The position numbers and the translations under genes are program-made. Below are positions 200 to 31,904 of a DNA stretch of 32,042 nt, piece by piece (the stretch's first letter is position 1; each line of letters opens with the position of its first letter). The notes beneath the pieces were generated by a model. It was given only the letters and a program-made list of their open reading frames with translations, did not search any database and was not told the DNA's origin. This stretch comes from a virus, in IMG/VR virus record IMGVR_UViG_3300029268_000084, positions 1 to 32,042 of that record. One strand, given 5' to 3'.

Positions 200-388
200 T
201 TACCTAGTTTGGTTGGTAAAGTTTAAATAATTCGTCCGTTCTTTAAAAACCAAATAGTTTACCCTTTTTGTAAAACTGATAAATGAAGGTCTCTTCTTAA
301 ACTTTAACAAAGAAATTCTAGTTACAGGTTGTTTATATCCTGTAACTGAAGTAAAAGCCGTCTCAGAAAAAGAAGAGAACCCTAACAT
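200..388 (-). CDS. Hypothetical 62-aa protein with 9-residue repeats
   Basis: The ATG at 388 overlaps the stop of the 103-aa gene upstream (TAATG), which suggests coupled translation. I do not recognise the product. From residue 30 the sequence falls into 9-residue units, FKKRPSFIS, FTKRVNYLV, FKERTNYLN and a fourth beginning FTNQTR that is ended by the stop, with consensus F-x-[K/E]-R-x-[N/S]-[Y/F]-[L/I]-x. The frame stays open after the stop through the Leu-Pro-Ser repeat into the next gene. It could be a small real gene, or the 5' part of a larger repeat-rich gene broken by one stop. The composition is basic and aromatic, with no clear membrane segment or signal peptide. Confidence 0.4.
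   Translation of the reverse strand: MLGFSSFSETAFTSVTGYKQPVTRISLLKFKKRPSFISFTKRVNYLVFKERTNYLNFTNQTR
203..301 (-). repeat. Degenerate 27-bp coding repeat, about 3.7 units
   Basis: Units at 301-275, 274-248, 247-221 and a partial one at 220-203 each begin with a Phe codon on the minus strand and encode related nonapeptides. They are visible mainly at protein level. The 27-bp unit is three times the length of the neighbouring 9-bp repeat and is in the same reading frame. Confidence 0.6.
321..346. repeat. Inverted repeat, 8-bp arms, 10-nt loop
   Basis: GTTACAGG at 321-328 is the exact reverse complement of CCTGTAAC at 339-346. The transcript could form an 8-bp hairpin. It lies inside the 62-aa reading frame, near its 5' end, and no T-run follows on the minus strand, so I do not call it a terminator. 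Role unknown. Confidence 0.6.
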
Positions 389-699
389 TAAACTTCAATA
401 CCACCAATATCAACCATCAAAGAAGTGTAAAGCGATACATAACCTCGTTCCTCTGCTTTGTACCCTACTGAATGGTTAAACTCTTTAATTAAGTTTTTAA
501 CTGTGGTTTCAGGTTGAGCAGGAATAAAGCCTTCCTCACCTTCAATACCCACCGCAGCCACGGCAGGCATGACCACTTCCATGTATACACCAACCAAAGA
601 ACTCCATCCTTCTCTGGATGAACCCCATAATCTGTCGATGCGTACATAAGCGTTAGGGATAGTTAAACCGTTAAAATTGTAGTCTGTTTGAATTGCCAT
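388..699 (-). CDS. Small tail-fibre-module protein, MAIQT family (intact copy)
   Basis: A 103-aa protein beginning MAIQTDYNFNGLTIPNAYVR. The start has a good ribosome site (AAGGAACAACTAAAATG). I do not know its function. Proteins with this N-terminal pattern occur next to tail-fibre genes in many phages, so a virion or fibre-accessory role is a guess from context. A broken copy lies immediately upstream at 717-878 and shares most of the first 35 residues (IPNAY, GSS.EGW) and the leader with its ribosome site. Near the C-terminus is YKAEERGYVSLYTSLM, then an acidic tail. No membrane segment. It is followed with TAATG overlap by the 62-aa frame. Confidence 0.75.
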   Translation of the reverse strand: MAIQTDYNFNGLTIPNAYVRIDRLWGSSREGWSSLVGVYMEVVMPAVAAVGIEGEEGFIPAQPETTVKNLIKEFNHSVGYKAEERGYVSLYTSLMVDIGGIEV

Positions 700-716
700 T
701 TTAGTTGTTCCTTGTG

Positions 717-878
717 TTAAATTGTGACTGCGTTTGCTGGTGTTGTGTAAGTTTCATCTACACAAACCTAGGTCAATGAGTTCCAGCCTTCTTTGCTTGA
801 ACCAAAGATACGTGCTACACGAATGTAGGCATTAGGGATTTGGATGCCTTTGAAGTTGTAGTTTGTTTGAATTGCCAT
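717..878 (-). pseudogene. Stop-interrupted copy of the MAIQT gene
   Basis: From the ATG at 878 the frame reads MAIQTNYNFKGIQIPNAYIR and continues to WNSLT, where a TAG at 768-770 ends it after 36 residues. Beyond the TAG the same frame reads VCVDETYTTPANAVTI to a TAA at 717-719; this weakly matches the next part of the intact 103-aa paralogue (VYMEVVMPAVAAVGI). So the copy carries a stop at about residue 37 and has lost its last half. Its leader keeps the ribosome site (ACAAGGAAACAACAATC), almost identical to the intact copy's leader, so a 36-aa peptide could still be made. A 7-bp inverted repeat (TTGTGTA at 743-749, TACACAA at 759-765) lies in the decayed part. Confidence 0.75.
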
Positions 879-901
879 GATTGTTGTTTCCTTGTATTAA
901 A

Positions 902-2047
902 TTATTTCTCGACCCATGGTGTCCAAGAGCCGTTAACCATACTTCTAATGAACATTTTATTGGTGTTCTCTGAAACAACACCAAGACTTGTTGCTCTTTG
1001 TACAGCCCATATGTTTGCGTCGTGAACCATAACCTCTAAATACCAAAAGTCACCAGTAAGCGGCATGTTTGTTGCATTAACACTACAAACGTATGTTTTA
1101 TTAACCGTGCTTAAAGTGTTTGCGTCGTATCCCCCATGACCAATCGGTGTGCTGCTAATACTCCCCGCCACCTGCAGCTTATCAACACCGTTGTCTGTGG
1201 TAGTGCCGATTAGGACTCTGCCAGACTCCATATCCATTATGTTTGCAGACCTTAAACGCATTACAGCCGACCCAAACGTAGCTTTAAGCAACTCTGACAA
1301 AGTATTTGGTGATGTATTTTGCGTAAAGAATGATGTCAAGCCAGTGATTGTTGAAAATGTAGCGGCTGGGTCAGTGTAGTAAGTGGTGGGCGCACCTGTA
1401 TCAGCTCTATATGTGAAAGTAACAGTTGATACCGAATCATTTCTATTTAAAAAATATATTATATCACTCCCAGCACCAAGTGAGTTAAACCCCCCGTAAA
1501 CATCAAAGGGACACGGCGTATAATACTCTGTTTGACTTAGTAAAGTAAGATGTACACTACCGTGTCCCTCCCCCATCAAATTTACAGCATAAACTTTTGA
1601 CGTCGCTCGGTGCGGATACGCATTAGTTACAGTAAGTGTTCCTGAAGTTACATACCCCCAAGAACCCGCACCAAAACTCATAATAGGACAATACTTTCCA
1701 GCAGGGACATCTGATATAACCCAACGTTTAGTGAAGATAGCTCCACCATCCTCAACAGTAACTAAGCTATTCTGCACATCCCCAGTTGTCCCATCAAACC
1801 TTACCAACGCATTGTCTGTTGAAGTGACTTTGGATACTTTAGTATTTAATGCAGTTTGAGTTGCGGTGGAGATGGGTTTATTTGCATCTGTGGTATTGTC
1901 AACGTGAGATAAACCCACCATCGCTTTTGTAACACCTGATACAGTACCTGATACAGTTAAATTACCTAATGTAGATAGATTACCTCCGAAACTTCCTGTC
2001 TCAGAAACCTCTATACCTTTTTTTACTACTAAATTCTTGTCTGCCAT
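902..2047 (-). CDS. Tail fibre or receptor-binding protein
   Basis: A 381-aa fibre protein. The N-terminal region has short beta-strand-like steps (SFGGNLSTLGNLTVSGTVSG), then the motif VGLSHVDNTTDANKPIS at about residues 44-60, which is widespread in phage tail fibres. The C-terminal 90 residues (GGYDANTL, WYLEVMVHD, AVQRATS, MFIRSMVNGSWTPWVEK) resemble the knob end of known phage and R-type pyocin fibres, which probably contacts the host surface. The AAAGGTTGGG stretch lies upstream of the ATG. It is the last large gene of the leftward fibre unit and lies 17 bp after the 720-aa fibre gene, with which it shares the VGLS/KPISTATQTAL segment. That it is a receptor-binding tip protein is inferred. 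Confidence 0.8.
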   Translation of the reverse strand: MADKNLVVKKGIEVSETGSFGGNLSTLGNLTVSGTVSGVTKAMVGLSHVDNTTDANKPISTATQTALNTKVSKVTSTDNALVRFDGTTGDVQNSLVTVEDGGAIFTKRWVISDVPAGKYCPIMSFGAGSWGYVTSGTLTVTNAYPHRATSKVYAVNLMGEGHGSVHLTLLSQTEYYTPCPFDVYGGFNSLGAGSDIIYFLNRNDSVSTVTFTYRADTGAPTTYYTDPAATFSTITGLTSFFTQNTSPNTLSELLKATFGSAVMRLRSANIMDMESGRVLIGTTTDNGVDKLQVAGSISSTPIGHGGYDANTLSTVNKTYVCSVNATNMPLTGDFWYLEVMVHDANIWAVQRATSLGVVSENTNKMFIRSMVNGSWTPWVEK

Positions 2048-2064
2048 TTTTACCCAACCTTTAA

Positions 2065-4227
2065 TTAAACTTCAATAATTGTAGCTACTACTTTAACTTT
2101 AATGTTAGCGGTAGTAGGAGAGAAAAGCAAGCGAAGTCCGTTAGAATAATCTACACTAAAACTTCCTAAACTAGATGCAGTGAGGATTTCACTATACTCT
2201 ACTTTATAAGCCGTAATGCCGTCAGTCATCAATAACATTTCTACGGTTTGACATGCAGACATAGTGGTGTTATGTACGATAACAACTGCTTTAAGGACTT
2301 TTGCTGTAAAAGTTGTAATAACCTGACTCGCGGTAAGGGTAGATAAAACAGCCTCAGCCGAAATCATGTTACCAATCAATGGTTTAGTTTGTTTTAAATC
2401 TAAAGCCGTTTGTGTAGCGGTTGAGATAGGTTTCAATAAATCAGCAGTATCGTCTGCATTAGAAAGCCCAACATCTGCTTTAGTTAAAACAACCACACCT
2501 GTCCGACCTGCTACAGAATCCACTGCACCCGAAGTAATGTAGATATAAACAGTACCAGACCATCTATAAGCTTTGTTTGTAGAAATGTCAACATATATTT
2601 TACCTGTTTCACCTGTTGAAGGGAAAACAGAAAAGGTATTATATTCAACAACATCATCAACATAAGATGGTAAATAAGTAGATAATATTTTAGACGTGGA
2701 GTCTAAAGGACACACGCCGTTAGCAGCACCAATCAAACTTGAAGCAACCCTAGCTGTAGAGTCAACCGCATTAACAGTAATATTAGAAGAACCATTAAAA
2801 CTAACACCATTAATTGTGCGAGCAGTTTGTAAAACAGTTGCGCTACCTGCATTACCCGATACAGTAGTTTGGTCTCCTGTGTTTGTCCCAGATAGATTAG
2901 CTACCGAAGAATTAGCTAACATAGAGTTCGAAACAGACCCTGCACCTAACAATCCTGTAATATCAGACTGAGCTACTGAGGCTGTACCTGTAACACGTCC
3001 TTTAGAGTCGATTGCTACTTTTTTAAACTCACCTAATCCTGAATTAGTTAAACTAGATAGGGTTAAAGCAATAGATGTACTGCCTGAACCTGTCATGTCC
3101 CCTGAGACGGATATTGTTTGGTTACCTGTCAAATATGTGCTAGTATCTAACGCCCATGTGTTGACGGCAGTTTTCTTCAAGAACCCTGTACTACCTACCA
3201 AACCAGCAATTGCCGTTAAGTCTGCATCAAGAAGTTGTGCATCAGTAATTCCAAACCCGCTTACTGTTGTCGGTTTACCTGAAGTAATCTTACCCCAATC
3301 TAAATTTGGCACGTCACTTGCTAGTAAACTACTTGAACCTGTAACCAATCCTTTAGAATCATAAGTAATCTTTGTTGCGGTTGCTGCGGAGATTGCGGAG
3401 TTTGCGGATACTTTACCTGCAACAGTTGCAGTTAAAGCCGATACAGCCGACTCGTCAGAAGCTAATTGAGAAGCAATCTCAGCTAGAGTATTTAAAGCAT
3501 CAGGAGCAGCTCCAATAATATCCTGAATTGCTGTAGAAACCTGTGCTGATGTTTGAAACCCACTATCATTAGTTAAAGAAGAAACTGCTGAAGGTATTGT
3601 AGGTAGATTCGATAAATCAGTGTAACTACCTGATTTTGCTACAGAAGATAAAGAAGAATCGTCTGTTTTGGTAGCCAGCAGTGTTACTATTTCTTGATAA
3701 TCATGTCCGTCTAATAGGTCAGCATCTAAACCTGAACCCGCTCCATCTACAGTTTTGAGTTTAGTTAAAAGTTCATTCGCAGAGATTCCGTCGATTACAG
3801 CCTGTACAGCTCCGTAACCATAAGTACAGATTAGGAATTCATTGTTGTAGTTTTGTGACCCAACTGTTACTGTATTAAAAGAAACTGAAGGATTGTCTAA
3901 AGTAATGAGTAATTCGTTATTTGAGTTAATTATATAAGCATTCCAAACTAGGTTACTTTGTGGAGAGTGGTCTAAAGTAGCCTGTCCATTATTGATTTGA
4001 TGTGTTTCTGTAACAAAAATTAAATCGTCTTTGTTTTCTTTCCAAGTTAGAATCCATTTAGCTTTAGTTCCACTCCATTCGTAGCCTGCTGCACCACCTC
4101 CGACATAAATATCAGAAATAGTATCTAACACAGTTACCTGCATTCCGTCAAATTTATTTACAATAGCATTTCTTTCAGCTATCGTCCCTACTTCTTTATC
4201 ACCATCGTTTGTAATTATAATACCCAT
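2065..4227 (-). CDS. Large tail fibre protein
   Basis: A 720-aa fibre protein. The N-terminal part (residues 1-65, AERNAI..FDGMQVTVLDT, YEWSGTKAKWILTWK) resembles a phage particle-attachment module. LDADLLDGHD at 167-176 is a recurrent tail-fibre motif. The middle is a long Ser/Thr/Ala/Gly-rich region with repeats of the KSGSYTDLSNLPTIP and GNQTISVSGDMTGSGSTSIAL type, typical of trimeric beta-structured shafts. Near residues 600-630 is VGLSNADDTADLLKPIS, shared with the 381-aa fibre. The last 90 residues look like a separate beta-sandwich end domain. Start: ATG with AAGGAAAATC. It lies downstream of the hairpin at 4246-4276. Which fibre end binds the host is not visible. Confidence 0.8.
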   Translation of the reverse strand: MGIIITNDGDKEVGTIAERNAIVNKFDGMQVTVLDTISDIYVGGGAAGYEWSGTKAKWILTWKENKDDLIFVTETHQINNGQATLDHSPQSNLVWNAYIINSNNELLITLDNPSVSFNTVTVGSQNYNNEFLICTYGYGAVQAVIDGISANELLTKLKTVDGAGSGLDADLLDGHDYQEIVTLLATKTDDSSLSSVAKSGSYTDLSNLPTIPSAVSSLTNDSGFQTSAQVSTAIQDIIGAAPDALNTLAEIASQLASDESAVSALTATVAGKVSANSAISAATATKITYDSKGLVTGSSSLLASDVPNLDWGKITSGKPTTVSGFGITDAQLLDADLTAIAGLVGSTGFLKKTAVNTWALDTSTYLTGNQTISVSGDMTGSGSTSIALTLSSLTNSGLGEFKKVAIDSKGRVTGTASVAQSDITGLLGAGSVSNSMLANSSVANLSGTNTGDQTTVSGNAGSATVLQTARTINGVSFNGSSNITVNAVDSTARVASSLIGAANGVCPLDSTSKILSTYLPSYVDDVVEYNTFSVFPSTGETGKIYVDISTNKAYRWSGTVYIYITSGAVDSVAGRTGVVVLTKADVGLSNADDTADLLKPISTATQTALDLKQTKPLIGNMISAEAVLSTLTASQVITTFTAKVLKAVVIVHNTTMSACQTVEMLLMTDGITAYKVEYSEILTASSLGSFSVDYSNGLRLLFSPTTANIKVKVVATIIEV

Positions 4228-4245
4228 GATTTTCCTTTATAGACT

Positions 4246-4276
4246 AAAGAAAGGTAGGGAAGTTTCCTTCCCTACC
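4246..4276 (-). terminator. Probable intrinsic terminator with GAAA loop
   Basis: GGTAGGGAAG at 4253-4262 and CTTCCCTACC at 4267-4276 form a perfect 10-bp stem. In the leftward transcript the loop reads GAAA, a GNRA tetraloop, and the stem is followed by UUUCUUU at 4252-4246. It sits after the coiled-coil gene and 19 nt before the next start codon, so it may attenuate expression of the fibre genes or protect an upstream mRNA end rather than fully stop transcription. Confidence 0.7.
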
Positions 4277-4325
4277 AAAACTTCTATTTACACAAATTTC
4301 TAAACTAACTATAAAGCAGTAAGTC

Positions 4326-5231
4326 TTATACGTTTACATAAAGGTACTGAATAGAAACAGAGAAACCGTCCCATTGACCTGAAGTATCCACAGAAATGGT
4401 GTATGTTTTACCGCTAACGTCTGAACCGTCAATGAAGACAGGAGCGTCATAAGCAACACCACTACCATCGATGTAACGAACAGTAGCAAAGTTCATAATA
4501 CCGTTGACACCTGATTTAGGAGCTTTACTTAACACAATTTTGTTTGCGCTAACTACTAAAGTTTCTAATTTAGGTAAAGAACCGCCTTGAGTTGCAGCAT
4601 TGTCAGCATAAGCTTTTAATGCAACATCTAAAGCAGAGTCAGCAGCAGTACGAGCAGAAACTTCAGCAGCTAAGTTAGTAGTCAAAACAAGTTCAGCCGC
4701 ACGAGCAGTTGAAGCTTCAGAGGCTAGGTTGTTAGTAAGAAGAAGTTCAGCGGCACGAGCAGTAGTCGCTTCAGCAGCTAAAGCAGTAGATGCAGTAGAA
4801 GCTAAAGTAGTGATAGCACCGTTAAGATCACTGTCGGCAGCTTGAAAAGCCGTAACGATTTCAGTTAAAGAGTTTAACGCAACACCATCAACGTTAGATA
4901 AAACATTGTTGATTTGAGTTTGTAAACCTGCGTCACCTGCGATACGAGCAGTTTCTTCAGCAGATACCGCAGCGATACGAGCTGTTTCTTCAGCAGTAAT
5001 CGCAGTTTGTAACACACCTTCAGCAGCAGTAGCGCGAGAAGCTTCAGCAGTCAAGTTGTTTGTTAATAACAATTCAGCAGCGCGAGCAGTTACAGCTTCA
5101 GCAGCTAGATTGTTGGTCAACACTAACTCAGCCGCTTCTGCACGAGCTAATTCAGTTGCGTCAGCCGCATATAAAGCAGTTAAGTCTGCGTTTAAACCGG
5201 AAATACTACTTTTTGCACGAGTAATTAACAT
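4326..5231 (-). CDS. Coiled-coil tail fibre shaft protein
   Basis: A 301-aa protein dominated by Ala/Glu/Thr repeats: LTNNLAAEAVTARAAELL and close variants recur about five times between residues 30 and 215, with an AEETARIA variant near residues 85-105. This is typical of a trimeric coiled-coil fibre or collar shaft. The segment TQINNVLSNVDGVALNSLTEIVTAFQAADSDLNGAI at about 105-140 interrupts the repeats and is common in phage structural proteins. The last 80 residues are beta-rich (NKIVLSKAPKSGVNGIMNF, SVDTSGQWDGFSVSIQYLYVNV). The ribosome site is GGAG. Several 50-bp direct repeats in the DNA underlie the protein repeats and could recombine. Function inferred from composition and neighbours. 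Confidence 0.65.
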   Translation of the reverse strand: MLITRAKSSISGLNADLTALYAADATELARAEAAELVLTNNLAAEAVTARAAELLLTNNLTAEASRATAAEGVLQTAITAEETARIAAVSAEETARIAGDAGLQTQINNVLSNVDGVALNSLTEIVTAFQAADSDLNGAITTLASTASTALAAEATTARAAELLLTNNLASEASTARAAELVLTTNLAAEVSARTAADSALDVALKAYADNAATQGGSLPKLETLVVSANKIVLSKAPKSGVNGIMNFATVRYIDGSGVAYDAPVFIDGSDVSGKTYTISVDTSGQWDGFSVSIQYLYVNV

Positions 5232-5274
5232 TTTGTAATCTCCAAATAAAATTTATTGTTAAAATTTATAGGTT

Positions 5275-5496
5275 TTACTTAGTCCTACAACTGATAGCAG
5301 CATTACGCTGGTTGTTTATAACTCTTATTAACTTTTTTACCTTAGAAAATAAAGGTTTTAAGGTTTTGTACTCCGTATATAGGGTGTCGAGTTCTTCTTT
5401 TGATAGGTTCGATATATATAACTTACCATCCTCAATCCTGTATTCGTATCCTTTTAAAATAACCCATGAAGCAAAATAAAAATCCCTGAATCGCAT
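5275..5496 (-). CDS. Hypothetical 73-aa protein
   Basis: Reads MRFRDFYFASWVILKGYEYR, then a Lys/Leu-rich helical C-terminus (KEELDTLYTEYKTLKPLFSK, KKLIRVINNQR). No domain recognised. It follows the 216-aa gene with only 6 bp between, so it is probably co-transcribed and perhaps translationally coupled; its own ribosome site is weak (GAG only). A second ATG at 5506 is in another frame and gives only a short product. It could be a small fibre-assembly factor, but nothing in the sequence proves that. Confidence 0.55.
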   Translation of the reverse strand: MRFRDFYFASWVILKGYEYRIEDGKLYISNLSKEELDTLYTEYKTLKPLFSKVKKLIRVINNQRNAAISCRTK

Positions 5497-5502
5497 AAAA
5501 AC

Positions 5503-6153
5503 TCATGTTAAATAAGATACAACTGCGAACCCATTTATTTTGACTGACTCATTTAAAATGGCATAAAACTTGCCTGAAGACTCTAGCGTAGAAATATTAT
5601 CGTATTCTACCACACCTTCAGGAGAATATACAATAGCTATTTTAAATAAAATATCTCCTGAAGGTTTGGAGGGTAAAAGTATAGAATTATTTATAATTTC
5701 TGTTTTATTTATGGTGATTAACTGTTGGTCTCCTGAGTTTGTAGCATATAAGGTATCTATATGTTGTTTATCATCTGGAGATAGAAGTCCTGAAAAAGTT
5801 TGTGTTGCTAAATTACCTACAATATGGTTGTTTTGGTCTAGGTAGACACTTTTTTCACTAGGATAGGTGATAAAGATATGTTTCGTACCTTTAGTAAACG
5901 GGACTAACTCACCGTTTGCGGAGGAAGAAAAAACTTCCTGTCTTCTTATAGAGTTTGTCCTGTAGATATAAAAACCAAGTCCTACCTCCCACAACGCACC
6001 TACCTGACTCTCGATAGCATAATAAAAACAATCCCCGTCAGAAGAAGTAGATTGAAAACTTTTAAAACCATTTACAGGTTCAAAAAGTAAAATATCCCCT
6101 GTCCCTTCTGTTAAGGTTAATTCTTTGACTCGGTTAGCTACTATAAGGGTCAT
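5503..6153 (-). CDS. Virion-associated protein with a tail-protein N-terminal domain
   Basis: A 216-aa protein. Residues 1-107 (ANRVKELTLTEGTGDILL, NGFKSFQSTSSDGDCFYYAI, WEVGLGFY, FTKGTKHIFITYPSEKSVYLD) match a pattern I recognise from many phage tail-associated proteins that sit near fibre genes. The C-terminal half is beta-rich and not recognised. No strong ribosome site lies upstream of the ATG at 6153, which is 23 nt after the stop of the 78-aa membrane protein gene. The exact role (adaptor, baseplate-like or fibre) is not visible. Confidence 0.6.
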   Translation of the reverse strand: MTLIVANRVKELTLTEGTGDILLFEPVNGFKSFQSTSSDGDCFYYAIESQVGALWEVGLGFYIYRTNSIRRQEVFSSSANGELVPFTKGTKHIFITYPSEKSVYLDQNNHIVGNLATQTFSGLLSPDDKQHIDTLYATNSGDQQLITINKTEIINNSILLPSKPSGDILFKIAIVYSPEGVVEYDNISTLESSGKFYAILNESVKINGFAVVSYLT

Positions 6154-6176
6154 TGATATAAGGATATAACTTTGTT

Positions 6177-6413
6177 TTAAGGAAGTTTAATTATATTATG
6201 AGATGATAACCATGTAAAGACTCCGACTGCAATTATACCGACGAGCCAAAAGAATTTAGTTATAATCGTTTCTCCTACTTCTTTATAGAAACTATTTCTA
6301 GCTTCTTCTACTGCTTTTTTAGCTATAATAATTATCTGTTCTTCTGATAGTTCGTATGTACCAAAATGAGGGCATTGGGAAAAATCGGTTGTATTATTAT
6401 CTTGACCAGACAT
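6177..6413 (-). CDS. Small membrane protein, one transmembrane helix
   Basis: A 78-aa protein. The N-terminus is soluble (SQCPHFGTYELSEEQIIIIA), followed by a helix of the KKAVEEARNSFYKEVGETII type and one hydrophobic span at about residues 53-71 (FFWLVGIIAVGVFTWLSSH). This layout, with a K/E-rich helix ending in a C-terminal membrane anchor, is common in unassigned phage proteins. It could be a holin-like or membrane-accessory protein; one span only and a position outside a visible lysis cassette leave this open. It is the first gene of the leftward unit; AAGG precedes its ATG at about 8 nt. Confidence 0.65.
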   Translation of the reverse strand: MSGQDNNTTDFSQCPHFGTYELSEEQIIIIAKKAVEEARNSFYKEVGETIITKFFWLVGIIAVGVFTWLSSHNIIKLP

Positions 6414-17305: not shown

Positions 17306-17340
17306 ACAACTCAATCCAATTTAACCTTCGTGAGGACATC

Positions 17341-17895
17341 ATGACTAAACTATATATCAAAGCCCATAAACCTTTTGTAGAAAAAATAATCACTGCAAAA
17401 GGTGTAAAAGATTCTGTAATTCTAGGTATCAAAACATATACAAACAATGAAATTGATGAAGTTAGAAAAACTTTTCAATCTTTGTTGGAGAATGTGCGTG
17501 TTACCCGATTGCTGAAAGAAATAGATGATTTAAAACAAGACGATACAATTTCTATTTCTGACGCAGAATCTAGGCTACAATCTTTATACTCTGAAATAGA
17601 CTCAACTCAGGAAGACCAAAAAGATAAACTACATGCTTTTTACAGAGGGCATATTTTATTTTTAAAAAGTGCGTATCTAGCTTATGAAGATGCCGCAGGT
17701 AAAAAAGTTGATGTATCTGTTACAGATACTAGAGATGCTAAACCTTTAGAGTTTCTATGGGAAAGTGCAGAAGAATGTCTACCCGTCCTCCTAGATGTTT
17801 ATTTTGATTCACCGTACTATAGAGACTCGCTTATTACATCTATAACTGAGACAATCTTTAACTACTCTGCAAAAGAGAATGAAAGAAAAAACTAA
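17341..17895 (+). CDS. Tail assembly chaperone, short form (gpG-like)
   Basis: A 184-aa protein in the lambda G position, between tube and tape measure. The N-terminus (MTKLYIKAHKPFVEKIITAK) is beta-like and the rest helical and acidic. Such chaperones coat the tape measure before tube polymerisation and are not in the virion. The start has GAGGACATC before ATG. The gene ends with A AAA AAC followed at once by TAA, a classic -1 slippery site, so some ribosomes should continue into the T-like frame. Function comes from position and the frameshift arrangement more than from sequence identity. Confidence 0.8.
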   Translation: MTKLYIKAHKPFVEKIITAKGVKDSVILGIKTYTNNEIDEVRKTFQSLLENVRVTRLLKEIDDLKQDDTISISDAESRLQSLYSEIDSTQEDQKDKLHAFYRGHILFLKSAYLAYEDAAGKKVDVSVTDTRDAKPLEFLWESAEECLPVLLDVYFDSPYYRDSLITSITETIFNYSAKENERKN

Positions 17896-18272
17896 TTGAC
17901 GCAGGCAAAGCGTTAGGCAAAGTTTATAAAGCTAAACCTAACGAAGAGCTTGTGTCAAAAAATAAAAAAGATGAAGACCTTTTTATTGAAGCTTTTCCTG
18001 AATTTAAAGATGTAGAAACAGAGATAGATGAAGTAGAAGAGGATACGGACGAAGAAATCTTCTACATTTTCGAAACAGTTAAGGATATTTTTGACATTTA
18101 CAACATAACTATAAATTATGTTGTAAATGAATTTAATTCTTTAGACTCTTTGGTGTTAGTTGAGTTGATAAAAGACAAAAAGTTAGCTATGACAGAAAGT
18201 CTTTCTAACATAACTTACATTCATAGCGGCTTTCTTTCAGTTGTAAACTATAAGGCAAGAACAGATGGCTAA
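17341..18272 (+). CDS. Tail assembly chaperone, frameshifted long form (gpGT-like)
   Basis: A -1 shift on the heptamer at 17886-17892 joins the G-like frame to an open frame that starts right after a TGA at 17880-17882 and runs to the TAA at 18270-18272. The predicted fusion is 310 aa (184 plus 126), with junction ERKN-LIDAGKALGKVYKA; lambda gpGT is 279 aa. The T-like part is very acidic (FKDVETEIDEVEEDTDEEIF). On its own the T frame has no ATG near its start and no ribosome site, and begins at best with GTG at 17952, which argues that it is made only as a fusion. Its end overlaps the tape measure start at 18265. Confidence 0.8.
17886..17943 (+). promoter_or_regulatory. Programmed -1 ribosomal frameshift site
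   Basis: A AAA AAC at 17886-17892 is in the correct phase (X XXY YYZ) for simultaneous -1 slippage and is followed directly by the zero-frame stop UAA. Downstream, CGTTAGG at 17911-17917 and CCTAACG at 17937-17943 are exact reverse complements that can form a 7-bp stem with a 19-nt loop, 18 nt after the heptamer. The slow stop codon and the stem are both plausible stimulators. Efficiency cannot be predicted from sequence. Confidence 0.8.
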
Positions 18273-21200
18273 CTCTAAAGATTTGAAGTTAAAATTAAAG
18301 GTTATTTATGACGCAGACGGAACTGCTCTTCTAAAAACCCAAAAAGAATGGGATTCACTTCAAAAAGAGTTAACAAAAGAAAGACAAAAAGAAAAAGATA
18401 TAGTAGCAGGTATTTCTGATGAACTTCGAAAACAACTAAACATTGAAGACAATTTAAAATCTTCTTTACAAAAGTTAAACCAAGAACAACAGGCAAAACG
18501 TAGAGATATAAATAGACAAGTTGATGAGCATAATAAGAAGGTATCTGAAGGATTAGCTACTGAAGAGAAGTTAAAAGAAACTCTTCAAGACAAACTTTCT
18601 CTTGATAATCAAATACTTAAAAACATAAACGACAAAATAAATCGAACCAAAAAACTTCTCGACGGTCAAAGGCAGTTAGTTGACGAAAAGCGGCGAGAAG
18701 GACAGGTAGAAAAGGAAAACGAAAGAAACGGAAAAACGGCTCGAGGAACTTCCTCTTCCTCTTCCTCTTCCTCTTCCTCTTCCTCTCCTTCCTCTCCTTC
18801 CTCTTCTAGCGGAATGAATATGGATAGGTTGTCGCAGTATAGCCGTGATTCTAGGTCAGGTGGCATGGATATTGCTAACCTTTCACGTTATAGCCGTGAA
18901 TGGAGAACCCTATCTAACGTAATCGGAGAGAATACAGTGCGAGTTGCGGAAAATGCGCGACAGTACCAAAATCTTTTTGTTCGGGTTTTTGAAATAGCCA
19001 GTATTCATGGATTAATTAACAGATTTAGAGAAGCTATAAAAGGTATTCCTGCTGCGGGTATTGAATTAGAATCTACAATAGCTTCTTTAACTGCCACAGC
19101 AGGCGGTTCTGGCGGAATGGGGAGTGTGTTAGAATCGCTTAGAGGTGAGGCAGATAGGACAGGTATTTCTATAAAAACTTTGAGAGAAACTTTCAGAGGT
19201 TTTCAAGCATCTACAAGTCTCGCAGGTGAGTCAATAAGTTCAACTTGGAAAATGTTTACTGAATTAAATACAGTAATTACAGGATTGCATCTTCCCTCCG
19301 ACAAAGCTAATGGCATATTTCTTGCTATGGCTCAAATCTTCAACAAAACAAAAGTACAATCTGAAGAGTTGGTAAAACAGCTAGGTAACTTATTGCCTGG
19401 TGCTTTTGCTAGTTTTGCTGCGGCTAACAATGTTGCTTTTGGAGGTCAGTTCAAAAACGCCTTAGATTTGATTGTACAAATGAAAAAAGGTTTAGTTTTT
19501 GCCCACGACACAATGGGAAAATTTACAGAATATTTAGCTGAGCGATTTGCTCCTGCGTTCGCCTTAGCTAGTCATAGTTTAAATGCAGAAGTTGGAAGGT
19601 TAAAAACAGGTTTTACTTTACTTCAAGAATCTATCTATACAGATTATTCTGGGTCTATTGTTGGTACTGTAAGAAACCTTACTAATTTAACGGATACCCT
19701 TAGAGGAGTTGTTGAAGGTACAAATACATTAGGTAATGTACTAAAAAATATAGCTATTATTGCTTTGGGAATGTTTTCTATCTATATAGTAAAAACTATC
19801 TTAGCCGCTCTAAAGTTACGAGCCGAAACTATAATTTTAGCTGCGGTTGTAGATAGTCAGGCTGCGGCTACTTTACGAGCTGCTGCGGCTACTCATACCC
19901 TAACAGGAAGGGTAATTGTAAGCACAATAGCTATGAACGCTTTTAGAACCGCTATAGCCTTTCTTAGTTCTCCAGTTGTTGCGATGACAGTTTTTTTAAC
20001 GGTATTATCTCTGATAATTAACGAATACAAAAACTCTAGAAAACCTATTGATGATGTAAATGAACTTTTACAACAATCTAAAGAAAATTTAGATGCGATA
20101 GGTAAAAAACCTGTAACATTAGAATTGAGGGTAGACGCCGACCCTGAAGTAAAAAAAGCTTTGGCAGCTATGAAAGCTTTACAAGACTATAGAGACAAAC
20201 TCAAAAATAGTTTAGAAACGAGTTTGGTTAAGAACAGTACTGTTAGACGTATTAGAGAAGATTGGTTATTAGAAACGAGTTTGGCTAGGGACAGTCTTGT
20301 TAGAAGTATTAAAGAACGTGGGTTAAAAGAATCAGAGGATAAAGTAAAAGAACTAGGAGACCTTCTTGTAGTGCTTAGAGAAAAGGCAGCCATAACTCTT
20401 GAACTTGAAACAAGTCAAGCTTTGGTAGATATACAAGAAATTTCCTCAAAAATGAAAGAGTTAGCTTTACAAGCTCAAGGATTTACTGAAGAAGCTGCTC
20501 GTACGAATTTTGAACATAGTTATGCTTCTCAAATGACAAAAGTAGAGAAAGTTATAAATGAAGGAAGTAGTCCTGTAGCCTCTTTAACACCTCCTTCTAT
20601 TTCAGGTTCTCTTCCTTCTTCAGTTATGTCAGGTAAAGGAGGAACTGCTCCTGTTAGTATTTTAGGTAGTATAGATTCTTTTCAAAAACCATCGACTCAA
20701 AAATCATCGACTACGCAAGTTGACGTTTGGGCAACTAAATTAAAAGAACTACAAAATATTAGATACCCTACCGAAGAACAAGCTAAACTAGCTTTGAGTT
20801 ATATGAATAAGCTAGCTATGTTTAAAGCGGCTGAAGATACTCAAAGAGACTATAGAATTGCTAAGGACTATCGTGTTAACGCTCAAGTAGAAGGTAGAGC
20901 TGTTGCACATACTAAAAGTATGTTAGAAATTCAAAAAAGAGCTTATGGAGAAGCAAAAACTTTAGATGATGTTACAGCTCAAGCAACTATTGAAGCTAAA
21001 CTAAATGAAACAGAGCTTTTAAAACAAATAAACCTAGAACAAAGTAATTTAAACTTTAGGACTAGAGCTGAGAATTATAAACCTAGCGAAGAAGATATTA
21101 AATTACAAAAAGACCTTAATGAGCAAAAAAAGTTACTTAAAATAGGGACAGAGAAAGAAATATCTGACGCTCAAGAAGCTTTTCTAAATAAAAATAAAGA

Positions 21201-22713
21201 ATCTAACTCATCTGCGTTGGATACAGAAACCAAAGATGTAAAAAGATTTTATAAAGATTATATTCGTGATGCTAAAAATGCAAGCAAAGAAATTGCCTTT
21301 TCTATTCAAACTGTTGAATGGGAATTTGAAGATAAAGCCATTTCTGCTGAAGAGTATTTTAGACAGAAAAATGCTTTACAAGACAAGGACTTAGCACAAC
21401 AAAGAAAAGCAACTGAAGAAGCTTTAGCCTTAGCTCAATCTGTTAATGACGTAGATTTAGTAATGGAGTATACAGATAGACTCGAAGGCTTAACAGACGA
21501 ACAAAAGAATCTAAACTTTCAAAGAGAAAGAGAGAATAACCTTCTTATTTTCAAACAACAGTTAGATAAAATAAATTTAGAAACAGCTCAAAAACTAAAT
21601 GCTTTAAATCTTCAATCAGCTGTAACAGACAATAAATACCTTTCAGGACTACTTCACGAAACTGTGTATTTAAAAGAATTAAATAAACTTAAACAAAAAG
21701 AGTTACAAAATATTTGGGAAGAAATTAAAGCTAAAACCACTTTAGCAAATCTTCCTACCACATCTCCTGCAAAAAGGGAAGAGTTACAAACCGAAATAAG
21801 TGGATTAAAAACACAGGTAACACAAAAATCATTAAGCGGAACGACTGTTAAAGATGTGATGGGGTTAAAAGGAACTGACCAAATATCTAACCTAGTAAAC
21901 TCAGCCTCAACCGCTAATAAATCTTTAACAGACTTAGAGGGAAATAAAACAGCAGAGAAAAACAGTGTAATGGAGAAAGCAGATAATGATTCTCTTAGAT
22001 TTCTTATGGGAGCTAAAGATGTAGACCCTGTTGAAACTTACAGAAAGCAGAATGAAGACCTACTTAAAATAGATGAACAATACGCACAGGCTTCTTTTGT
22101 TATTAGGTCAGAAAATTTTGGAAATATAATGGGTTCAGGGGCTGATGCGTTTGCTTCTTTGACTTCTTCTATGCAGGCATACTACGGAGCAGATAGTGAA
22201 GCGGCTAAGGCAGCTTTCATAGCGTACAAAGCTTTCAAAATTTCTGAGATTATAATAACTACTGCACTTTTAGCAATAAAGTTAGCTACTTCTCAGGCAG
22301 ACATACCTATTATCGGGCCGTTCACTGCTGCAAGTATGATACCTTTTGCTTATGCAATGGGGGCTGTTCAGATTGCTGCTGTAATGGCACAACCTATGCC
22401 TGCTGCTCATGGAGGTTTAACCAAAGTACCTGAGGAGCAAACCTATCTACTTAACAAAGGGGAAAGGGTTTTATCTCCAAAACAAAATACAGACTTTACA
22501 AATTATCTAAATAGAAAAAAAGAATCTACTTCAGATGGACAAAACCAAAATAACGTATACAATATATCAGTAACTGTACAAGGAAACAAAGACGATAAAC
22601 CTTCCGACACAGGTCAAAAAGTCGCAGAAGCTGCTATGCGTGCAATAGCTAAACAAGAAATAACTTCTGCTTCTAGGTTAGGTAACAAACTAAATAAAAT
22701 AACTGCTTTCTAA
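18265..22713 (+). CDS. Tape measure protein
   Basis: A 1482-aa protein that sets tail length and is ejected during infection. Residues 5-150 are coiled coil (KEWDSLQKELTKERQKEKDI), followed by a poly-Ser/Pro linker at 163-180 and a globular start typical of lambda gpH-like proteins (FRGFQASTSLAGESISSTWK). Hydrophobic segments lie near 490-520, 550-590 and 1320-1375. Two 19-residue tandem copies occur at 650-687. The C-terminus AHGGLTKVPEEQTYLLNKGERVLSPKQ is the hallmark end of tape measures. With the usual 0.15 nm per residue the tail would be about 220 nm, against 135 nm for lambda (853 aa). The start overlaps the T-like frame. Confidence 0.93.
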   Translation: MANSKDLKLKLKVIYDADGTALLKTQKEWDSLQKELTKERQKEKDIVAGISDELRKQLNIEDNLKSSLQKLNQEQQAKRRDINRQVDEHNKKVSEGLATEEKLKETLQDKLSLDNQILKNINDKINRTKKLLDGQRQLVDEKRREGQVEKENERNGKTARGTSSSSSSSSSSSSPSSPSSSSGMNMDRLSQYSRDSRSGGMDIANLSRYSREWRTLSNVIGENTVRVAENARQYQNLFVRVFEIASIHGLINRFREAIKGIPAAGIELESTIASLTATAGGSGGMGSVLESLRGEADRTGISIKTLRETFRGFQASTSLAGESISSTWKMFTELNTVITGLHLPSDKANGIFLAMAQIFNKTKVQSEELVKQLGNLLPGAFASFAAANNVAFGGQFKNALDLIVQMKKGLVFAHDTMGKFTEYLAERFAPAFALASHSLNAEVGRLKTGFTLLQESIYTDYSGSIVGTVRNLTNLTDTLRGVVEGTNTLGNVLKNIAIIALGMFSIYIVKTILAALKLRAETIILAAVVDSQAAATLRAAAATHTLTGRVIVSTIAMNAFRTAIAFLSSPVVAMTVFLTVLSLIINEYKNSRKPIDDVNELLQQSKENLDAIGKKPVTLELRVDADPEVKKALAAMKALQDYRDKLKNSLETSLVKNSTVRRIREDWLLETSLARDSLVRSIKERGLKESEDKVKELGDLLVVLREKAAITLELETSQALVDIQEISSKMKELALQAQGFTEEAARTNFEHSYASQMTKVEKVINEGSSPVASLTPPSISGSLPSSVMSGKGGTAPVSILGSIDSFQKPSTQKSSTTQVDVWATKLKELQNIRYPTEEQAKLALSYMNKLAMFKAAEDTQRDYRIAKDYRVNAQVEGRAVAHTKSMLEIQKRAYGEAKTLDDVTAQATIEAKLNETELLKQINLEQSNLNFRTRAENYKPSEEDIKLQKDLNEQKKLLKIGTEKEISDAQEAFLNKNKESNSSALDTETKDVKRFYKDYIRDAKNASKEIAFSIQTVEWEFEDKAISAEEYFRQKNALQDKDLAQQRKATEEALALAQSVNDVDLVMEYTDRLEGLTDEQKNLNFQRERENNLLIFKQQLDKINLETAQKLNALNLQSAVTDNKYLSGLLHETVYLKELNKLKQKELQNIWEEIKAKTTLANLPTTSPAKREELQTEISGLKTQVTQKSLSGTTVKDVMGLKGTDQISNLVNSASTANKSLTDLEGNKTAEKNSVMEKADNDSLRFLMGAKDVDPVETYRKQNEDLLKIDEQYAQASFVIRSENFGNIMGSGADAFASLTSSMQAYYGADSEAAKAAFIAYKAFKISEIIITTALLAIKLATSQADIPIIGPFTAASMIPFAYAMGAVQIAAVMAQPMPAAHGGLTKVPEEQTYLLNKGERVLSPKQNTDFTNYLNRKKESTSDGQNQNNVYNISVTVQGNKDDKPSDTGQKVAEAAMRAIAKQEITSASRLGNKLNKITAF
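18751..18804 (+). repeat. TCCTCT hexanucleotide tract encoding poly-Ser
   Basis: Six perfect TCCTCT units at 18751-18786, then two CCTTCCTCT units at 18787-18804. They encode twelve Ser then Pro-Ser-Ser twice, a flexible linker in the tape measure. Unit lengths keep the frame, so expansions would be tolerated. Confidence 0.9.
20212..20325 (+). repeat. 57-bp tandem duplication in the tape measure gene
   Basis: Two adjacent 57-bp units (20212-20268, 20269-20325) both begin TTAGAAACGAGTTTGG and encode LETSLVKNSTVRRIREDWL and LETSLARDSLVRSIKERGL. About 11 of 19 residues are identical. The duplication is in frame and diverged, so it is not recent; it lengthens a predicted helix. Confidence 0.85.
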
Positions 22714-27900: not shown

Positions 27901-29862
27901 AAGTACAGTTATAGAAAAGGTTTTACAGCGGCAAATACAGATTTTGCTGCTAAAATCCAACCTAAAATAATCTTTAAATCCCAAAACTCAGTTATCTCTG
28001 ATTTAGAGTTATTTACTTTAGAAGACTCCCTCTATCCTTCGGACTACTACAAAACTAAAAACCCTAGCATCCTTGCTAAAACAATTAGTTTTACCTTCCC
28101 CTACGAAGACAATTTAGCTTTTTTCAAAACCCCTGCTAGAAGTTTTAGGCTGAGGTTCTACGCTAGAGATTTTTTCAATGATTTGTCGAAAGGGGTTGGG
28201 GTTAGGTTTGATAACTATGCCCCTCCCACAGACTGTTGCTCATTTACTGTAAAAGCTTTGGCTGAAGCTGTGTTGATTACAATAACTCCGACAGCCTCTA
28301 CCGATGAAGATATTTTAGGTTATTGTGTTTGGCAGGAAAACCCTTCATTGACTAAAGCTGCAGTAGCTGAAAAAACCCCAATTTATAAAGGCGAATCTAC
28401 TTCGGTTACTTTAGCTGCTTTACCTGATGTAGACTACGAGTATTGGGTAGCTGCTTATGATTCTTACGGTAAATCCGACCTAAATTTGTTAGATAAAATA
28501 CCACTTACTGTCAGGGTAGCTACTAATTTGCAGGATGCTTTGGTTATTGTAGAAGGATTAGAGTTTTCTACTTTAGCTCATGGATATACATGGACTGAAG
28601 GAGTTGTTTTAAACAATAACAATGGGCGAAAATATGTTGTAGAGGAGGGAAGCACTGCCACTCAGGGTATGTTATCTTACTTTGTATTGGATTTTGATGA
28701 AACTTTAGAATCACATTTTGAAGACTCTTCAGTACAAAAACAGAGTATTACAAAATTAAGTATTACGACGGTAAATATACACACTCTAGTTACTGCCCCT
28801 CCTTTGAACGTCACTAGAGTTACTGTAGCCTCATGGTATATAACACCTTTGGGGGGTTACGGACTGACAACATGGTTAAAAGAATCTGCTAACAAAATAG
28901 AAGCACGGACTAAGGCTAGGATAGATACTGCTTTGGATTTGGTTGAGCATGATTTTAGAGTAACTGCATTAACTCCAAAAATAGTTTTGAAAGATAAAAA
29001 TGATTTATCAGAGGATGGGACAAAGTCTACAACCTATTCTTTGACCGCTGATAAACATATTTTTACTATTACAGCCGATTTATGCAACTCTTCAGATAAT
29101 GAAGTTATCTCTCAGAGAGGGTTTTCAGCTCCTTTAAGAATTAATTTTGATGATAAATCCTTATCTATTTATGGTAACAGGATTGTTGATGAAGGTAGAC
29201 TAGCTAATGTAATCTCTTCTATACCTACCCTAGATAGTCTACTCACTAACTCCTATGACATAGGTTGTGTAGTTAAAAGTATGTTAGATGGAGTACCCGT
29301 GATAGGAACTCAACGTATGTCCTCTAGCGGAATTATAACAGATGCATATGGAAATGAAGCAACTGATGGGTTTACTTTAGCCGTTAGAAATCAGTTTGGT
29401 AGCTGTGCTTTTCATGACCTGATAGCTCACGGAGGTTTAAAGGTAATAGGAAATATAAATAATAACGGGAGCATAAACACTTATGGAAAAGTTGTATCTC
29501 AAATTGGTATGGTCGCTCCTTTTTTCAATACACCATCGGATGAAAACCTAAAGACTATTCATTCAAAGGTCTCTAACGCTTTAAGTGGGTTATGTAAACT
29601 CACTCCTATAAAATATACCTACAACAATAAATATTTATCTTTACAGACTCAAAAACTTTCTATCGGACTTATTGCTCAGGAAGTTGAGGTAGACTTTCCT
29701 GAAGTTGTTACTTCTTCTACTCTTTTTGATGGAGATGATACAGAATATAAAAGCCTAGACTATTCTAAACTTATACCTGTACTTATTCAAGCTATAAAAG
29801 AGCTTAATGAGAAAGTAGACCTTCTAACATCTAAACTATTCCTTTATGAGACACAAATCTGA
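24964..29862 (+). CDS. Central tail fibre, host specificity protein (gpJ-like) with S74 chaperone domain
   Basis: A 1632-aa protein (lambda gpJ 1132). The start KGGKPSEEPSDTLRSRQTVR and LLFAISEGVI match gpJ. Family text continues to about residue 640 (QYEWTANPAWILFDVLT, GLGIADKDIDL, NQFATRENVPTFLMYILTICNA). Fibronectin-like text follows at about 665-780. A beta-rich insertion near 860-1040 (YTIGSVISADD, GFGIDIQPDSASSTF) may be a lectin-like fold. The C-terminal 108 residues begin PSDENLK, with Ser1525 as likely cleavage residue, and include GLIAQEVEVDFPEVV and a final coiled coil: the intramolecular chaperone that trimerises fibres and then cuts itself off. There is no ribosome site upstream, only AACTTT repeats. 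Confidence 0.92.
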   Translation: MAILEGEYIQGAKGGKPSEEPSDTLRSRQTVRLLFAISEGVISAETPEIYLNKSSIENFKHDELTVKQGTDWQGVIPGFIAIEASKDVPTQFSEIRKATTDTNPQSKDYKDYSVSLEADVDAVNLTFTLSSLRLADDKGDIKPYTVEFNIATSFDSMFSAVKSENKITKKGKVSTVYAFDVLVKKPPTTQGQENALWYVGVKRLTIDDDTKVTAKQSSKTSITSIISIQYKQLPYPNTALLGLVMKDADEFGGKIPDIIFRVKGIKVRIPTAYNPEEEGERYTGQWDGKLKYITLEGGITHDQYEWTANPAWILFDVLTRPSSRGGLGIADKDIDLPSIYLLGKYCDDLVESGRINTNGTLLKERRYELHNQFATRENVPTFLMYILTICNANITTNEFGQISVMWDREGQEITKQVSNANVVDGIFTYSSNDFEARYTVANVTFNNPDNFGETITTTYIADGSHGGSDFDLVSRYGIQTIDIVLAGCMSEAQAIRKARWAIYSNSITTGFVGFKVGFTGINYKIGELINIYDNYNASDSLAGIVTGFLANTRSFRLDKSITRIPTGSWVASYYTSEGIVSSIVSIEGDVVTLPLKSTLPILSSLCMLSDSTLSPKVYKVIKIDLEEDVYFITCSEHFEGKYSFINSGILLKPPSVDFIDQTYFEVPAPTTLKVTTRTVTNKIVSSYLDLDWKIHPFPSTLPRNQRFKPTYKLIYSLDGVVQNTITNIEVSEYSIKDPIPGVYEFRLWAINPKSGRLSSELSLEFVFRPRTGRSDLKTPTNIKVQGSTATGNRLPFTTKNLTVNFEHGGGEKDTLKDFLIEIRELDNKLVHSYYIPSTNTQFQYNLGTNLFDKYPTSADTVSNVGEVYEVTYPFADDGLYNSYTIGSVISADDLKDMGSLSIVGSFPTLSDVCGFGIDIQPDSASSTFVILCKDFKINCYIQGTLVYSFPTLSTHTPSDSYEIEFGFEDNYFVVFKKSGKYSYRKGFTAANTDFAAKIQPKIIFKSQNSVISDLELFTLEDSLYPSDYYKTKNPSILAKTISFTFPYEDNLAFFKTPARSFRLRFYARDFFNDLSKGVGVRFDNYAPPTDCCSFTVKALAEAVLITITPTASTDEDILGYCVWQENPSLTKAAVAEKTPIYKGESTSVTLAALPDVDYEYWVAAYDSYGKSDLNLLDKIPLTVRVATNLQDALVIVEGLEFSTLAHGYTWTEGVVLNNNNGRKYVVEEGSTATQGMLSYFVLDFDETLESHFEDSSVQKQSITKLSITTVNIHTLVTAPPLNVTRVTVASWYITPLGGYGLTTWLKESANKIEARTKARIDTALDLVEHDFRVTALTPKIVLKDKNDLSEDGTKSTTYSLTADKHIFTITADLCNSSDNEVISQRGFSAPLRINFDDKSLSIYGNRIVDEGRLANVISSIPTLDSLLTNSYDIGCVVKSMLDGVPVIGTQRMSSSGIITDAYGNEATDGFTLAVRNQFGSCAFHDLIAHGGLKVIGNINNNGSINTYGKVVSQIGMVAPFFNTPSDENLKTIHSKVSNALSGLCKLTPIKYTYNNKYLSLQTQKLSIGLIAQEVEVDFPEVVTSSTLFDGDDTEYKSLDYSKLIPVLIQAIKELNEKVDLLTSKLFLYETQI

Positions 29863-30562
29863 AAGACGTGGAGCTAAACCAGAAAGAAATAGAGCTAAAA
29901 GAAATGAAAAGGTAAATAATTCAGAAGAAAGTTATCAAAACCAATCAAAACCTTTAACTCCTTTAACAAAAAACCAGAAAAAATATCTAAATTCCTTTAC
30001 CAATAACATAATTACGTTTGGTATTGGAGAGGCTGGAACAGGAAAAAGTTATTGTGCTGCGGGTTATGCAGCTAACCAACTGAAAGAAGGTAAGATAGAT
30101 TCTATAATAATCACTCGTCCTGCTGTAGAAGCAGGGGAAAGTTTTGGTTTTCTTCCAGGTGAGTTGTCTGAAAAGTATCTACCTTACTTAGAACCATTTA
30201 AAAGTATACTTAATGAACGATTGGGGGTAAGTTATGTAGAATACCTTATTAAAGTAGGTAAGATACTTCCTTCTCCTTTATCCTTTATGAGAGGTAAGAC
30301 ATTTAATGATTGTGTAGTTATTTTAGACGAAGCTCAGAATACCTCACCTACTCAGATGAAGATGTTTCTAACTAGAATAGGTAAAAATTGTACGGTTATC
30401 ATAGACGGAGACCCTATTCAAAAAGATATTAGAGGTATTTCAGGGTTAGAAGATGCTGTGGATAGGTTACAAAACCTAGATTCAGTAGGAATTGTACGGT
30501 TTACTATTAATGATATTGTAAGGTCAGGAATAATTAAAGATATTTTACTTGCTTATAGATAA
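29846..30562 (+). CDS. phoH: PhoH-like ATPase
   Basis: A 238-aa P-loop ATPase. Walker A GEAGTGKS lies at 61-68, TRPAVEAGESFGFLPGEL at 90-107 is the signature of PhoH proteins, Walker B VVILDEAQNTSP is at 157-168, and IDGDPIQKDI at 186-195 follows. The N-terminal 30 residues are basic and disordered-looking. PhoH is widespread in phages, especially aquatic ones, and its role is unsettled (RNA or phosphate-stress links). Its ATG lies within the last codons of the J-like gene, 17 bp overlap, so it is expressed as a late gene here. Confidence 0.9.
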   Translation: MRHKSERRGAKPERNRAKRNEKVNNSEESYQNQSKPLTPLTKNQKKYLNSFTNNIITFGIGEAGTGKSYCAAGYAANQLKEGKIDSIIITRPAVEAGESFGFLPGELSEKYLPYLEPFKSILNERLGVSYVEYLIKVGKILPSPLSFMRGKTFNDCVVILDEAQNTSPTQMKMFLTRIGKNCTVIIDGDPIQKDIRGISGLEDAVDRLQNLDSVGIVRFTINDIVRSGIIKDILLAYR

Positions 30563-31100: not shown

Positions 31101-31844
31101 CTATCCAATCATGTAAAGTTTTTCTAAACCTTGTACAGCTCCTGTGTTTTTACCTAAACTACTAGCTATCTCCTTCTCCCAAATACAAACAAATTCAGAC
31201 GGCATGAAGTATTCTGACACAAATATTCTATGTTTTGTTCGGTTATCGATACACCATTGGTAGAATTGTTCGTAGTTGAATAAATTTTTACTGTTTGTGG
31301 TATACTTAGTGGTGGATTTGTAAGGAATATCGCAATAGACTATTGACTTTTCAGGAATAACCAAATCTAAATAACTTCCTATCCGCAAATCAACTGTCTG
31401 AAGAGCTTTACTTTGTTTCTTCGCCGCTCCGTACGCTTCAGCTATGTCGTCTCTACCTTTTCTACTTTTTCTATCCCTACACCACCCTCCGTACCATTGA
31501 CCTCCATACGATAAAGCATAGCCTGTGTAGCAATTTAACCCTGTTAATTCCCCATTTTTAACCTGTTTTTTCTGTTCGTGGTAGGTTTCTTCGGTAAATT
31601 CCTGATTATTCTTTGGAAAATCTACCTCATTTTCTATGTTCTTTATGTAGGTTAGAGCTAAAATACATTCTTTGCTTAAATCACTTCCCATCCTACTTAT
31701 GTTACCCCATTCTACTTTATCTATCATACCCCCACCACCAACAAAAGGCTCAACCCACCAATCAAACTCCGCCACGTTTACATTCTTCTCTATTTGTTGA
31801 AGAATATGTTTCGCAATTCTACTTTTCCCACCCATGTATTTCAT
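31101..31844 (-). CDS. DNA adenine methyltransferase (D12 class)
   Basis: A 247-aa N6-adenine methyltransferase of the Dam/D12 type. KYMGGKSR at the start and VEPFVGGGG, about residues 31-39, form the AdoMet-binding motif I. CDIPYKSTTKY, about 171-181, is the catalytic motif IV, DIPY in place of the usual DPPY. Between them TGYALSYGGQWYGGW is the usual phage-type middle region. I start at the ATG at 31844, preceded by AGGGG; a GTG one codon earlier is also possible. It probably methylates phage DNA, which may protect from host restriction. No partner nuclease gene is visible. It runs against the late operon and likely belongs to an early or accessory unit. Confidence 0.85.
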   Translation of the reverse strand: MKYMGGKSRIAKHILQQIEKNVNVAEFDWWVEPFVGGGGMIDKVEWGNISRMGSDLSKECILALTYIKNIENEVDFPKNNQEFTEETYHEQKKQVKNGELTGLNCYTGYALSYGGQWYGGWCRDRKSRKGRDDIAEAYGAAKKQSKALQTVDLRIGSYLDLVIPEKSIVYCDIPYKSTTKYTTNSKNLFNYEQFYQWCIDNRTKHRIFVSEYFMPSEFVCIWEKEIASSLGKNTGAVQGLEKLYMIG

Positions 31845-31904
31845 CACCCACCCCTAGCTCATAAAGTTTCATCATTTACTCCAATTATGTCGTACCCCAA
31901 ATCA

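Follow-up and report, generated by a model that had tools for sequence, protein, structure and literature searches.

A AAA AAC abutting the stop codon: a probable variant of the lambda G/GT-like programmed -1 frameshift in several families of putative phage tail assembly chaperones

The window, which is the whole stretch of DNA analyzed here, is an AT-rich virus record of 32,042 bases. Its gene order resembles that of lambda, with terminase, portal, protease, capsid, tail genes, tape measure, and more tail genes. All features described are on the + strand unless otherwise stated. The tape measure open reading frame (18265-22713; 1482 aa) matches a PHROG tape measure family (E 4.2e-27). Upstream of it lies a gene, referred to as G (17341-17895; 184 aa), which starts at ATG 17341 behind a probable ribosome site, GAGGA (17332-17336), recognized by sequence reading. 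Based on its position upstream of the tape measure gene and its alignment with 16 relatives, G encodes a putative tail assembly chaperone. In the zero frame, the 3′ end of G reads ...GAA AGA AAA AAC TAA, resulting in the C-terminus ...ERKN. As the earlier note had described, the slippery heptamer A AAA AAC sits in the phase of G at 17886-17892, and the UAA stop codon at 17893-17895 abuts its 3′ side in the intercodon arrangement. The -1 frame is open from the heptamer to the tape measure start, also as described before; it spans 17883-18272 and overlaps the tape measure ATG (18265) by 8 nt. The segment of this frame read from 17892, referred to as T, comprises 126 codons. Together, G and T would form a 310-residue GT protein after the predicted shift, with the junction peptide KN|LIDAGK.

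Because G and the -1 frame overlap by only about 13 nt, any shift is confined to this short region, and the heptamer is the slippery site within it. There are 98 in-phase heptamers of the form X XXY YYZ in 28 genes of the window. The A AAA AAC at 17886-17892 is the only one that abuts a stop codon, and its -1 extension of 126 codons compares with a maximum of 35 for the other 97. Scans of the window against Rfam and for tRNAs returned no match. Elsewhere in the window, sequence reading alone indicates a leftward block of repetitive, fibre-like genes (388-6413, - strand), an open reading frame with a PhoH-like ATP-binding protein (29846-30562), and another resembling DNA adenine methylase (31101-31847, - strand). 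Within the tape measure open reading frame, a long run of serines (S13 and more; 18670-18870) is present that is missing in the relative L001.

Relatives of the window phage were collected using its tape measure and capsid proteins as queries, leaving the junction itself out. This yielded 13 more distinct phages with the same G-T gene pair, giving a group of 14 including the window. Their G proteins share 20-68% identity with that of the window and their T proteins, in the aligned members, 22-65%. Other approaches recovered less: querying annotated phages with the DNA of the G-T region gave no real relative, G alone gave no match among viral contigs, and a two-sequence alignment retrieved only the L001 contig again. 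A capsid scan of bacterial genomes returned no relative that would point to a host. One phage (L035, 11281-13194) has a capsid protein in common with the window, though it carries another tail module that lacks the G-T pair.

The heptamer A AAA AAC is present in phase in all 14 phages. A stop codon, either TAA or TAG, immediately follows it in 11 of them and is found one codon later in the remaining three (L013, L020, L033). Given the encoded amino acids and the codon usage of each genome, the probability of the heptamer occurring in all 14 has a log10 P of -14.0, a figure that treats the lineages as independent, which is true only in part. The seventh base of the heptamer is always C, even though a T at this position would leave the amino acids of both frames unchanged (AAC/AAT for Asn, CTA/TTA for Leu); the per-genome probabilities of this invariance multiply to about 2e-7. 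Conservation of the T protein starts at its first residue, with the consensus L(I/V/M/L)xxG.

An alternative explanation is that T is a separate gene, with translation starting at GTG 17952 or through re-initiation where G stops. The earlier note had stated that T has no start of its own. This holds in that there is no ATG near the beginning of T, but there is an in-frame GTG at codon 21 (17952-17954), the sole early start-like codon in T. We rejected this codon as a real start, given that it is replaced by GTA in the closest relative, L001, and that starts are absent or located elsewhere in other relatives. The T segments of L005, L008, and L016 contain no ATG, GTG, or TTG anywhere. In addition, the conservation of T begins at the junction, upstream of the GTG. 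L026 alone has an ATG at the junction, in the context TAATG, which would suit re-initiation. Weighing these observations, we consider a separate T gene highly improbable.

Downstream of the heptamer, the window contains a two-tier hairpin. The perfect 7-bp stem previously noted 18 nt after the heptamer is present, with arms CGTTAGG (17911-17917) and CCTAACG (17937-17943), but forms just the top part of a larger structure, its upper helix, and this structure lies closer to the heptamer. The lower helix consists of 11 bp (17896-17906 paired with 17948-17958), such that the hairpin begins 3 nt past the heptamer, right behind the UAA. Its minimum free energy is -28.2 kcal/mol (z -7.8) and none of 200 shuffled sequences folded as well. 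Among the window, L001, and L005, four pairs of the lower helix are changed on both sides. All seven pairs of the upper helix are kept in the three phages, one of them being double-changed through two synonymous changes. Shifting the 3′ arm by 1-3 columns reduces these five double-changed pairs to zero or one. This level of covariation was reached by 7 of 500 shuffles, and is derived from three sequences with the structure taken from the window’s own fold. The hairpin was rejected as a general feature of the group, given that in most of the distant relatives the fold does not surpass that of shuffled sequences. Conservation in relatives, which the earlier note had suggested as a check, is thus complete for the heptamer, but the hairpin is clear only in the nearest relatives of the window. 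Three phages (L017, L130, L026) have different 3′ folds that are better than shuffles.

Across the group, Shine-Dalgarno-like sequence is enriched 6-18 nt upstream of the heptamer compared with the rest of the gene (KS P 7e-4). This element is clearest in L001, L005, L017, L020, L026, and L033. In L004, L008, and L016, the 3′ fold and upstream scan detected no strong hairpin and no Shine-Dalgarno-like element. Shine-Dalgarno-like elements are known to stimulate -1 shifts in bacteria. These features bear on the possibility that RNA polymerase, rather than the ribosome, slips on the run of A and adds one A in some transcripts, which ribosomes would then read normally. The conservation of a run of exactly six A is compatible with such transcriptional slippage. 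However, six A is short for efficient slippage by the polymerase, which would also not need the C that is retained behind the run despite T being synonymous in both frames. The covarying hairpin and the upstream Shine-Dalgarno-like excess are likewise features of translation. It therefore seems very unlikely that polymerase slippage accounts for the conserved site.

Sequence and structure comparisons were less informative about the identity of G. The window’s G reached the cut-off of no chaperone profile. Phage_TAC_4 (PF08748) gave sub-cut-off matches in 5 of 17 group members, with a best E of 0.024 and a best score in the group of 15.2 bits compared to the Pfam gathering score of 21.1, and gave no match for the G of the window. 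No member of the window’s group matched the PF08890 (XkdN) profile at E 0.1, whereas XkdN controls matched at 1e-45 or better. A sub-threshold Pfam match to Retrotrans_gag, found in 1 of 17 members, was taken as chance. The predicted structure of G is confident (pLDDT 86.5), but searches with it were weak: several tail assembly chaperones appeared only at E 0.2-0.7, and the matches among solved structures were generic helical hairpins. A sequence search of solved structures with a profile of G returned no match. The name chaperone remains putative and refers to the position of G, its frameshift, and its tape measure neighbor.

A pattern scan that included the junction hinted at further families with the same site, and no statistic was drawn from it. 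Two families, the XkdN chaperones and those of certain cyanophages, were then tested by homology without the junction. Homology to XkdN identified ten annotated phages. In eight of them, A AAA AAC has an immediate stop and is followed by a -1 frame of 52-64 codons that is not annotated as part of the gene. In the remaining two, the stop is one codon later in one, and both parts are in one frame in the other, Streptococcus phage EJ-1. We also collected 80 XkdN loci from bacterial genomes using a query that lacked the C-terminal end, and 78 of these were readable. A AAA AAC with an abutting stop is present in 73 of the 78 (47 TAA, 25 TGA, 1 TAG), the stop is one codon later in four, and one has no such site. 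This lone exception (L182, around 2881) lacks a slippery site at the end of the gene; its zero frame continues 38 codons beyond the match and its -1 frame is closed. The XkdN -1 frame begins with LIxxG. These XkdN genes (L156-L165, L169-L248) have a conserved -1 frame, which in the phage records mostly lies in an unannotated gap before the tape measure gene. Strong RNA structure is predicted in the 75 nt after the heptamer of the XkdN loci (mean z -3.3; 83% below -2); this 3′ structure (L169-L248) is stronger and more general than in the window’s group. A third kind of G served to identify three cyanophages by homology (S-CBS1, S-CBS3, S-LBS1), and all of them have A AAA AAC TGA. The abutting site is hence present in 11 of the 13 named phages of the XkdN type and cyanophages combined. 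The stop-abutting layout, which the earlier note had set against that of lambda, is not peculiar to the window phage, given its presence in XkdN and cyanophage chaperones.

These counts also address whether the window simply contains a broken gene, in which a sequencing error or indel splits a single G-T gene. The window is a metagenome contig, and EJ-1, of the XkdN type, does have both parts in one frame. However, the same split at the same heptamer recurs in 13 relatives, 73 of 78 XkdN loci, and 11 of 13 named phages, and we regard this explanation as refuted. In EJ-1 (L158, 1195-1791), the single frame results from one extra A upstream of the heptamer compared to the related MismyG; either a sequence error or a genuine variant with a single product could explain it.

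The heptamer conserved in all 14 phages, the conservation of T from its first codon, the lack of a conserved start for T, and the covarying hairpin in close relatives together support a programmed -1 ribosomal frameshift. On this sequence evidence, it is very probable that the shift from G into T proposed in the earlier note takes place and produces a minor G-T fusion, as in the G/GT system of lambda. That ribosomes slip here, how often they do so, what part release plays, and how the products act in tail assembly are inferences, as follows. Most ribosomes would read AAA-AAC and be released at the adjacent UAA, yielding the 184 aa G. A small fraction would move back by one nucleotide on the heptamer, aided by the downstream hairpin, and continue as ...KN-LIDAGK... 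to make GT. By analogy with lambda, G would coat the tape measure protein and T would recruit the tail tube protein. The abutting stop would fix the end of G at KN. If slipping is possible with UAA in the A site, release would compete with slippage, as the earlier note had proposed, and GT would stay low.

Such a yield can be compared with published systems. In two HK97-like chaperone genes, the shift occurs at 6-7% (PMC3711429), and lambda requires a ratio of about 30:1 (PMC5009743). A AAA AAC is a weak site in E. coli (PMC5009743; PMC4066793), which counts against the frameshift reading, and the re-pairing of AAC to AAA is poorly tolerated by bacterial ribosomes (PMC4066793). A weak heptamer and poor re-pairing fit a low yield of GT.

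The stop codon may also contribute to the signal. We compared the observed stops with an expectation from codon usage, which assumes that the stop is a by-product of the Leu codon of T. In the XkdN set collapsed at 80% identity (59 loci), 56 stops abut the heptamer compared to 26.6 expected (P 1.4e-19 if independent); in the window’s group, 11 of 14 abut compared to 5.2 expected (P 0.0013 if independent). As abutting stops exceed this expectation, selection seems to act on the stop codon itself as an element of the signal, and the stop probably has a role of its own. A more conservative reading is that the frameshift is real but the stop is passive: G must end at or just after KN, and the stop has no role in the rate of shifting. 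Three of 14 phages in the window’s group and 4 of 78 XkdN loci indeed tolerate one extra residue, and UAA, UAG, and UGA are all used despite being read by different release factors. Conversely, the large excess of strictly abutting stops in XkdN is not anticipated by a passive stop. In addition, PMC4373837 reports that -1 shifting in bacteria and human cells drops when the next codon is a stop, in a manner dependent on the cognate release factor. We consider the chances of a passive stop to be about even. Strict abutment is not essential in any case, since an additional codon precedes the stop in three of the 14 phages.

The frameshift of G/GT and the heptamer A AAA AAC are both already known, and -1 shifting is the rule for tail assembly chaperones of this kind (PMC5009743). 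Lambda resembles the window in the position of a short G before the tape measure gene, a -1 extended GT (predicted in the window), a T segment lacking its own start, and an in-phase heptamer near the end of G (reviewed in PMC5009743). The two differ in that the lambda heptamer, GGGAAAG, lies upstream of the stop codon of G, whereas A AAA AAC touches the stop in the window. No sequence similarity was detected between G and T of the window and profiles of lambda G or T. The distance from site to stop averages 26 and 36 nt in two sets of chaperones (PMC10885494). The g-t site of HCTV-2 is A_AAA_AAC in a tail chaperone gene (PMC5009743), the heptamer also present in the window, though HCTV-2 is a virus of haloarchaea. 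The XkdN chaperones (PF08890), from phages and prophages of Bacillota, share with the window the heptamer with immediate stop and the junction KN-LI(E)(A/G)G. They differ in belonging to another family by profile, in having a T of only 52-65 residues, and in originating from long-tailed contractile phages; their frameshift is unannotated in the records examined. S-CBS1, S-CBS3, and S-LBS1 also have A AAA AAC abutting the stop in chaperone-like genes, and their -1 frame reaches the tape measure gene after 109-113 codons, but they use UGA, are GC-rich, and encode different proteins. Part of this frame is listed in S-CBS1 and S-CBS3 as a tape measure protein in its own right (L166-L168 for S-CBS3, S-CBS1, and S-LBS1, respectively). 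Stop-intercodon shifts on eukaryotic ribosomes resemble the window in having a stop codon next after the heptamer, although the heptamers and genes differ. RSV and BYDV are natural next-codon-stop cases named in PMC4373837. The literature searched contained no chaperone shift site touching the stop and no XkdN frameshift, though an earlier account of the abutting layout may exist.

As judged from these sequences, the phages described here very likely carry a widespread, stop-abutting variant of a lambda G/GT-like programmed -1 frameshift. The site is fixed in three chaperone families that have no detectable profile match in common, which suggests that the junction KN-LIxxG is conserved better than the proteins around it. 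This junction can thereby serve to locate the longer chaperone, now missed in many phages and prophages, and to annotate it. More tentatively, A AAA AAC and the abutting stop may be a single recoding signal, ancestral or repeatedly selected, in which competition from release helps to set the G:GT ratio. If so, this would be a widespread natural stop-intercodon -1 frameshift in bacteria, and tail assembly would be tied to the supply of release factors. The stop-abutting site also provides a natural bacterial system for asking whether ribosomes slip before or after translocation. Finally, since E. coli ribosomes perform poorly on this heptamer, one may ask how enough GT is made by these phages.
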